DNA of 17,143 nucleotides from a bacterium (lineage in GTDB: Bacteria; Spirochaetota; Spirochaetia; Treponematales; Rectinemataceae). The first letter of the stretch is position 1, and each line of letters begins with the position of its first letter. Position numbers and translations under genes: made by a program. Below the pieces are notes generated by a model. The model saw only the letters and a program-made list of their open reading frames with translations, was not told the DNA's origin and searched no databases. Shown in pieces: positions 12,475 to 14,004 of this stretch. Location: positions 1-17,143 of the forward strand of contig JAKALZ010000007.1 of NCBI GenBank assembly GCA_021813065.1, written 5' to 3'.

Positions 12475-14004
12475 CTATTGAGATGTTGTCGGCTGCGCTA
12501 ACTGGGCATAAATCCCAGGAGGAGGCTCGTCCATCCAGAGTTTGTACTGACCGGCGGCTTGGTAGCAGAGCATCCTGTAGCCATTCATGATGCGGCACCC
12601 AGAGGCTTCGGCTCGTTCGAGCAACGGAGTCTTTGCGGGGTGATAGATGAGATCAAAAACTGACTCTGAGCCCTTGAATTCGTAAAAACTGATAGGGTCT
12701 CCTTCTCCCTTCATGCCCACGCTCGTTGCTTGCACAATGAGGTCGGAATATTCATAGATCGCGTCGATGGCTCTGTCGTCGAGGTGACTGTACTGGAAAT
12801 TGTATTTCCTGGCTAAATCCCGCCCGGCGCTATAGGTTCTGTTAACAATGAGCGCTCGCGCTCCCTTTCGGAAGAGCGAAAGAGCGATGGATTTCGCGGC
12901 TCCTCCAGCACCGATAATTGTAGCCTTGCAGCCTGAGAGGTCCTCTTTCCCAAGAAACTCGATCAGGCTTCGCTCGAATCCATCAGCATCGGTGTTGTAG
13001 CCAGCCCACGCGGAATCGCGCCAGACGAGCGTGTTGCAGGCTCCAATGCGCTTTACGTCCGTAGAGTGGAACGATAGATAGGGCAACACATCTTCTTTGA
13101 ACGGCACCGTGATGGCGGATCCCTTACCGCCGAGCAGCTCGAGAATTCTGAGGCCATCGGTGAAGGAATCCGCCGGAGTAGGAATGAGAAGCGCATCCTT
13201 ATTCATTTTTCGAAAAGCCGTATTGTGCAGGTAGGGCGACAGCGATTGAGCGATCGATTGCTGGCCCATGAGAGTGTAGAGCGGAGTATCGTGTTTGACG
13301 ATATCATAATTGTAGATATTCGCGAGATCGAAGGGGTCGAGCTGGCCAGGCGCGGCGCTCTCCATTCCGAAGCGCAGAGGACTCGCATACGTCCAAAGGG
13401 ATCCAAAGCGCCACTGGAGAATGCGAGAGGCGACACCGTAGGGGCCGCCAGCGATGAGAAGCTGTTCGCGCGGAGGGCGAGCCAATGACCACTCCAGAAA
13501 GCGAATAAACTCCCCAGAATTTTGTGGATGTACGACAAGATGGGGGATTTCATCCTCTTCGACGGTCAACTCGTCGTAGGCCTCATCCAAATTTTCTGGA
13601 AGACCATCGAGCATTATGCGAGAGCGCACTATCCTCGTTCCGAATGTACGGCACGCTTCTTCGACCACGGGCGCGTGAAAATCGCTCTCTAAATCGACAT
13701 AGGTATAATTTGCGCGCGGATCCGCCTTGGGGAACGAGAGTGCTTTCGCGAAGAGAACGAGTCGAACACCTTCTCCATCGTTGAATTTACCGCCCTCTTG
13801 CGTTCTTCGGATGGTAAGCATTGAGGGAAGGCCCGCTCTTTCTGGAAAAGATCGAATATAAAAGCGCTCGCTCGGATCGAGACAATCAGCCCTGAGTTCG
13901 ACATAATCGACGACAGATCTATACCGATCCAATATTCTGATATCTTCGTCGATTGTCTTTCCTGTTAAACAAATACAGATTTTCGGTTTTGTGGTCTCTT
14001 CCAT
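12475..14004 (-). CDS. aroE: Fused AroD-AroE protein: dehydroquinase-like domain plus shikimate dehydrogenase
   Basis: 509 residues. Residues about 6-225 form a type I dehydroquinase-like barrel; about 240-500 form shikimate dehydrogenase, as in plant and chlamydial fusions. The AroE half looks intact: QSLSPYLHN (Ser254, Ser256), ITVPFK (Lys303), ACNT (Asn324), NTDADGF (Asp339), the NADP loop GAGGAA at 365-370 with NRT at 388-390, and Gln482. The AroD half keeps ligand-binding residues (Glu36, Arg38, Arg66, Glu106, Arg194, and Ser217/Gln221 in ESAAPGQ). However, the position of the Schiff-base Lys is His155 (IPHLVVHPQ instead of IPKIAVMPQ), and that of the catalytic His is Ile130 (VRSRIMLDG for MSYHDF). 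By family knowledge this half should not catalyse dehydration, so another DHQ dehydratase would be needed. No clear Shine-Dalgarno precedes the start. Confidence 0.9.
   Translation of the reverse strand: MEETTKPKICICLTGKTIDEDIRILDRYRSVVDYVELRADCLDPSERFYIRSFPERAGLPSMLTIRRTQEGGKFNDGEGVRLVLFAKALSFPKADPRANYTYVDLESDFHAPVVEEACRTFGTRIVRSRIMLDGLPENLDEAYDELTVEEDEIPHLVVHPQNSGEFIRFLEWSLARPPREQLLIAGGPYGVASRILQWRFGSLWTYASPLRFGMESAAPGQLDPFDLANIYNYDIVKHDTPLYTLMGQQSIAQSLSPYLHNTAFRKMNKDALLIPTPADSFTDGLRILELLGGKGSAITVPFKEDVLPYLSFHSTDVKRIGACNTLVWRDSAWAGYNTDADGFERSLIEFLGKEDLSGCKATIIGAGGAAKSIALSLFRKGARALIVNRTYSAGRDLARKYNFQYSHLDDRAIDAIYEYSDLIVQATSVGMKGEGDPISFYEFKGSESVFDLIYHPAKTPLLERAEASGCRIMNGYRMLCYQAAGQYKLWMDEPPPGIYAQLAQPTTSQ

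Follow-up and report, generated by a model that had tools for sequence, protein, structure and literature searches.

The AroD half of the AroDE fusion protein encoded in the window (the whole stretch of 17,143 nucleotides that was analyzed) is very probably a pseudoenzyme: the dehydration step appears to have been taken over by a type II 3-dehydroquinate dehydratase (AroQ), the catalytic dyad of the type I domain was lost repeatedly, and the folded domain is most likely kept through its partner, shikimate dehydrogenase (AroE). The window is one contig of genome G000 (2.0 Mb, 325 contigs, 69.8%-complete). A pseudoenzyme had already been proposed in the first-pass annotation, and the loss of the dyad together with the presence of AroQ in the eight same-genus genomes carrying the fusion supports it well.

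Domains and catalytic residues of the fusion protein

The fusion gene, its domains and the codons discussed below are listed in Table 1. Residues 9–502 of AroDE are matched by the Arabidopsis 3-dehydroquinate dehydratase/shikimate dehydrogenase (2gpt, E 1.7e-36 in a PDB sequence search). The AlphaFold2 model of AroDE (84 sequences in the alignment) has a pLDDT of 94.2, and since its best Foldseek match is again the Arabidopsis enzyme (2o7q, TM 0.81), the fold of the AroD barrel is predicted to be preserved. The two proteins share their domain composition, domain order and predicted fold; the plant protein is an active enzyme and has the usual dyad, which AroDE of the window lacks. The NCBIfam profile NF006802 (bifunctional, chlamydial) gives 151.6 bits for AroDE, below its cut-off of 598.

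Table 1. Features of the aroDE locus in the window. Coordinates of the codons of retained residues were derived from residue numbers.
Feature	Coordinates	Strand	Description
aroDE fusion gene	12475..14004	(-)	509 aa, ATG start; type I 3-dehydroquinate dehydratase (AroD) half and shikimate dehydrogenase (AroE) half
DHquinase_I (AroD) domain, dyad broken	13312..13977	(-)	Residues 10-231; PF01487 profile 1-230, 85.5 bits vs cut-off 22.2 (87.8 bits for the match at 13312..13977)
AroE half	12475..13290	(-)	Residues about 239-509; Lys303 and Asp339 present; looks intact
His155 codon CAT	13540..13542	(-)	Aligned to E. coli AroD K170, Schiff-base lysine
Ile130 codon ATA	13615..13617	(-)	Aligned to E. 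coli AroD H143, general acid/base histidine
Glu36 codon	13897..13899	(-)	E. coli E46, retained
Arg38 codon	13891..13893	(-)	E. coli R48, retained
Arg66 codon	13807..13809	(-)	E. coli R82, retained
Glu70 codon	13795..13797	(-)	E. coli E86, retained
Arg194 codon	13423..13425	(-)	E. coli R213, still present here but missing from some dead relatives
Gln221 codon	13342..13344	(-)	E. coli Q236, retained here

The AroD domain belongs to the PF01487 fold family by a whole-domain profile match above the cut-off. The aroD equivalog profile TIGR01093 gives 67.7 bits against a cut-off of 139.3, a shortfall that distance alone could cause. In the AroE half, PF08501 and PF01488 are above their cut-offs, PF18317 lies just below (24.1 vs 25.8), and TIGR00507 reaches 186.2 bits over residues 242–492, missing its cut-off of 200.2. 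Lys303 is invariant and Asp339 nearly invariant in the alignment of 84 homologues; these residues are taken here to be the catalytic pair of shikimate dehydrogenase. The substrate-binding and NADP domains with the Lys/Asp pair are thus present, and the earlier impression of an intact AroE half agrees with the Pfam domains and the conserved pair. A Lys/Asp pair is described in PMC9074039.

The type I dehydroquinase reaction requires an imine formed by the catalytic lysine. When AroDE is aligned to E. coli AroD (from NC_000913.3, the reference for residue numbering), the segments compared around H143 and K170 are gap-free, and they confirm the first-pass assignment of His155 to the position of the Schiff-base lysine and of Ile130 to that of the catalytic histidine. 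Direct reading of the minus strand returned the same two codons. Neither residue expected of an active type I dehydroquinase is therefore present. The lysines among residues 1–238 are found at positions 6, 8, 16, 73, 87, 93 and 237; residues 94–236 contain none, and a migrated Schiff-base lysine was rejected on this sequence evidence. According to PMC9074039, E. coli AroD H143Q is inactive, and an alanine substitution leaves the enzyme severely impaired.

The likeness to E. coli AroD extends over the whole domain and includes 7 of 12 pocket columns (46, 48, 82, 86, 114, 213 and 236, corresponding to Glu36, Arg38, Arg66, Glu70, Asp104, Arg194 and Gln221), the difference being the absent Schiff-base lysine and catalytic histidine. 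These columns are taken here to line the ligand pocket. Besides 143 and 170, three columns differ: 203 (Ile), 205 (Gly) and 232 (Ala), the last being the commonest letter among relatives. The claim that the ligand-contacting residues look intact is largely but not entirely correct, since Met205 is kept in 94% of dyad-intact proteins. Glu106, formerly listed as a ligand contact, aligns with E. coli E116; the contacting glutamate is presumably E. coli E86, here Glu70.

The nearest named relatives of AroDE come from spirochaete assemblies and are 65–80% identical (Rectinema subterraneum, 77%). Among the 120 homologues listed (P0001 included), lysine is found in 107 and histidine in 99 at the dyad columns. 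The survey of relatives suggested by the first-pass annotation revealed both substitutions in P0002 (88% identical, on another contig), which has the same His/Ile pair, and other dyad breaks in all 11 proteins from P0003 to P0013 (variously K/I, R/H, M/H, R/I and K/Y).

Type II AroQ in the genus and the order

The fusion is found in eight of the nine same-genus genomes, and all eight combine a type II AroQ (PF01220 match) with a broken dyad; in the ninth (G004, 79% complete) the profile search gave neither AroQ nor AroD. In G000, 69.8%-complete, the PF01220 search for a type II AroQ gave no match. The proposed search for AroQ thus had a divided outcome, negative in G000 itself and positive in every other same-genus fusion genome.

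The gap could be explained by gene order. In G001, G006, G007 and G009, aroQ is located 2.6–5.6 kb from a dehydrogenase-like gene. Contig C148 of G000 (4,650 bases) ends inside this gene, and contig C138 (4,852 bases) starts inside a gene sited beyond aroQ in G009; in G001, another gene of C138 is likewise placed beyond aroQ. When the approximately 5.5 kb between the flanks was searched against the DNA of G000, only short matches of 66–67% were obtained, in a sigma-54-activator-like gene. Because the contig ends flank the expected place of aroQ, its absence from G000 is most likely an assembly gap, and a true absence from the species was set aside. 3-Dehydroquinate synthase (AroB) and chorismate synthase (AroC) were found in G000, so the shikimate pathway probably runs there.

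Across the order, the dyad was read in 240 of 259 genomes; the others were 7 without a PF01487 match and 12 AroQ-negative genomes with a match that were left out. AroQ-bearing genomes were defined by a PF01220 match. Of 30 AroQ-bearing genomes, 21 have a broken dyad, as compared with 8 of 210 AroQ-negative ones (Fisher p 6e-17, uncorrected for kinship), the controls being drawn from the intact-leaning top of the E-value list with part of its low end and most of the rest added. In the subset of tool-chosen relatives, the proportions are 13/17 and 6/39 (p 2e-5). For about 70% of the AroQ-bearing genomes surveyed (21/30), an annotation of AroDE as a bifunctional enzyme is therefore probably incorrect.

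The eight broken AroQ-negative cases include G000. Four more (G027, G040, G048 and G052) each carry an additional, dyad-intact type I copy; in the G052 copy, columns 82 and 86 are Asn and Gln. The remaining three, G042 (L070), G124 (L143) and G149 (L153), retain AroDE at full length, its dyad broken, and neither AroB nor AroC was found in them, G149 being 86% complete; the search for AroB and AroC covered 32 genomes, all outside the dyad-intact AroQ-negative group. Among broken AroQ-bearing genomes, G005, G006, G008 and G077 gave no AroB match, and G006 and G077 no AroC match either; a reduced pathway may for this reason also play a part in these four.

The dyad is kept in 9 of the 30 AroQ-bearing genomes (G011, G026, G043, G056, G062, G065, G068, G071 and G091); in G068 the only aroQ match is a partial copy of the altered second type described below, and in G071 there are two aroQ fragments. 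Of nine AroQ-negative genomes with two type I copies, five (G012, G019, G143, G181 and G195) have none broken. A second enzyme, therefore, does not force the loss. Within genus g13, the AroQ-negative G029 reads H/K at the dyad, and the AroQ-bearing G021 and G028 read N/K and Y/K.

Kinship was taken into account with a quick tree of 102 fusions, from which the two catalytic columns were removed; 8 of 171 rows had no full AroE half and were left out, and controls were thinned to every third. This tree requires at least 16 changes of dyad state. In comparisons of independent pairs, AroQ and a broken dyad go the same way in 8.1 of 12 and the other way in 1.3 (median p 0.04). When the trait is AroQ or a second type I copy, the figures are 8.4 of 14 vs 1.0 (median p 0.04). 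With pathway absence added ('step not needed'), they become 10.5 of 15 vs 0 (median p 0.001), this trait having been defined after the exceptions were seen. The test of AroQ against the dyad is weaker on a quick tree of the AroE half only (median p 0.125).

Retention of the dead half, its explanations and precedent

A PF01487 match is present in 30/30 AroQ-bearing genomes, split over contig ends in G056. For eight genomes of the window's genus, dN/dS is 0.074 in the AroD half and 0.052 in the AroE half; the closest four genomes give 0.108 and 0.069, and three broken g46 genomes 0.049 and 0.054. The AroD/AroE ratio of dN/dS is 1.30–1.57 in the window's genus, 1.22 in g13, where the dyad is broken in two genomes and intact in one, and 0.90 in g46, as compared with 0.55–1.28 in six intact clades with usable tree lengths; saturated values (the AroE half of 'f4 intact' and both halves of 'g25_intact', tree length about 15–32, ratios 2.91 and 0.36) were left out. 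Selection on the dead AroD halves is thus relaxed just modestly, and the terminal-branch rates given below agree with this. Such purifying selection suggests that the dead half is kept for something.

Over 54 columns conserved in intact proteins, mean retention is 86% in the broken rows of the genus and 92% in other broken rows, with proteins and genome open reading frames of differing N-terminal ends pooled and some proteins, P0001 included, counted twice. The lowest retention in the genus is observed at M205 (0), A172 (0.09), the Pro92 (0.18) and Tyr102 (0.32) columns and H143 (0.36), followed by the Val126 column (0.41), K170 (0.45), the Ile11 column (0.50), R213 (0.68) and G235 (0.73). Drift in the genus extends beyond the active site, because the Pro92, Tyr102, Val126 and Ile11 columns are among those poorly retained. 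E46, R48 and R82 are retained at 92–100% in both broken sets and are invariant in the 22 broken rows of the genus, where column 86 is Asp or Glu.

According to the preferred explanation, an AroD half devoid of the Schiff-base lysine and the acid/base histidine would not perform the type I reaction, judging from its sequence and the published mutants. 3-Dehydroquinate would be converted to 3-dehydroshikimate by the separate type II AroQ, whose gene is present in the congeners and presumably in G000, and which would serve the pathway there; the intact-looking AroE would then reduce dehydroshikimate. With AroQ present, selection for catalysis in the fused domain would have lapsed, and loss of the dyad then recurred, in more than one form. 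Retention of the folded domain is most likely explained if AroE folds, dimerises or is positioned through the AroD half. Retention as a scaffold for AroE is the best guess that the analysis allows. A broader proposal, put forward tentatively, is that the order repeatedly made the AroD half a stable non-catalytic subunit needed by AroE or for flux control, i.e., an allosteric or assembly part, perhaps binding dehydroquinate or dehydroshikimate.

The dead domain could instead be functionless and persist as a passenger, clean deletion from a fusion being rare or harmful to folding. In support of this, tips with a broken dyad show a higher rate of the AroD half relative to the AroE half (median log2 ratio on terminal branches 0.33, n=30) than intact tips do (-0.12, n=71; p 0.004, uncorrected for kinship, one short AroD row dropped), and otherwise conserved columns drift in the genus both at the catalytic floor and elsewhere. 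This is nevertheless a somewhat unlikely account, given dN/dS values of about 0.05–0.11 in the dead halves, far below 1, retention of the 54 columns at 86% and 92%, and the domain being kept in every AroQ-bearing genome. A module that only binds, holding dehydroquinate or dehydroshikimate and so feeding AroE or sensing flux, would fit the invariant E46, R48 and R82, the acidic column 86 and the seven pocket columns kept in the window. These three residues may be structural, however; Met205 is Gly in AroDE, and M205, R213, G235 and position 236 are altered in part of the broken set, which makes such a module rather improbable. R213 and position 236 are assumed here to form the carboxylate side of the pocket.

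The first-pass annotation had also considered a different chemistry, in which the AroD half would remain an active dehydroquinase through His155 or His159. His155 is common to P0002, and histidine at the lysine position arises separately in G033, but position 159, His in the window, is Asn in P0002, the congeners (R/H, M/H, K/I, K/F and K/Y) share no common replacement, and AroQ removes the need for such activity; the proposal is highly improbable. An error of sequencing or assembly as the source of the His and Ile codons could be suspected from the fragmented, 70%-complete assembly of G000. Its probability is negligible: P0002 has the same pair, the P0001 cluster comprises six member sequences on two contigs, and the dyad is broken in all eight other same-genus fusions. 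Sequencing error was rejected because independent contigs carry the same change.

Displacement of a type I enzyme by a type II enzyme is already known from Candida albicans: in PMC9074039, assays demonstrate that Aro1 contains a dead type I domain and that the type II enzyme Dqd1 supplies the step. As in the window, where the dyad is likewise lost in a fused type I domain, the catalytic histidine is replaced (by Gln in Aro1), the site contains no suitable lysine and the adjoining shikimate dehydrogenase stays active in Candida, its counterpart here looking intact; in relatives of C. albicans that lack the type II gene, the dyad is intact (PMC9074039). The dead domain of Aro1 mediates dimer contacts, yet its replacement by a linker has no effect on growth (PMC9074039), which speaks against a vital scaffold role and leaves the scaffold guess with a counter-example. 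In contrast to the fungal five-domain protein, which was characterized biochemically, the bacterial protein is a two-domain AroDE characterized here from its sequence; its dyad loss recurs in an entire order, and dN/dS was determined as well.

A search of the open-licence literature found no report of a bacterial AroDE with a dead domain or of Rectinema with shikimate. The novelty lies in a bacterial pattern that recurs order-wide while selection still acts on the dead domain. The combination of an unrelated enzyme, lost catalytic residues and a domain that stays under purifying selection is a natural experiment performed many times over in one order. Why fused dead enzyme domains persist could be tested with close relatives that differ in aroQ.

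Surroundings of aroQ and individual loci

Genes resembling those for a TRAP-type solute binding protein, an Ldh2-like dehydrogenase, a sigma-54 activator and an FAD oxidoreductase were recognized near aroQ by sequence reading (L073, L076 and L080; not all at each locus). This neighbourhood may indicate that quinate-like acids are taken up or broken down, and AroQ in the genus could be partly catabolic, given its transport- and dehydrogenase-like neighbours.

Two aroQ genes stand in tandem in L075, L076, L079, L082, L083, L086 and L092 (G003, G005, G008, G021, G022, G028 and G077). One is ordinary; the other has VEVF for VEVH and S for D in the LRDA motif, and this altered copy is conserved across genera. 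The ordinary copies keep the type II motifs, and the changes in the altered copy are presumed to remove catalytic residues. The altered copy would be another pseudo-dehydroquinase, this one with the type II fold, and is possibly a partner in a mixed oligomer.

Several fusion loci have features of their own. G033 (L065) shows an independent change of lysine to histidine at the position also affected in AroDE of the window; its H143 is retained and followed by an insertion. G023 (L051 and L060) encodes AroDE twice, in similar Y/K copies on different contigs, which could be due to a strain mixture or to duplication. The AroD-domain match of G095 (C36:5565-6230) has one TAA in frame, and only the open piece was used; the AroD match of G094 is present in one profile search and absent from another. 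In G006, two identical aroQ copies (L077:8891-9388 and 18402-18899) are inverted, with mirrored neighbours, near a contig end, and the pair is possibly an assembly artefact.
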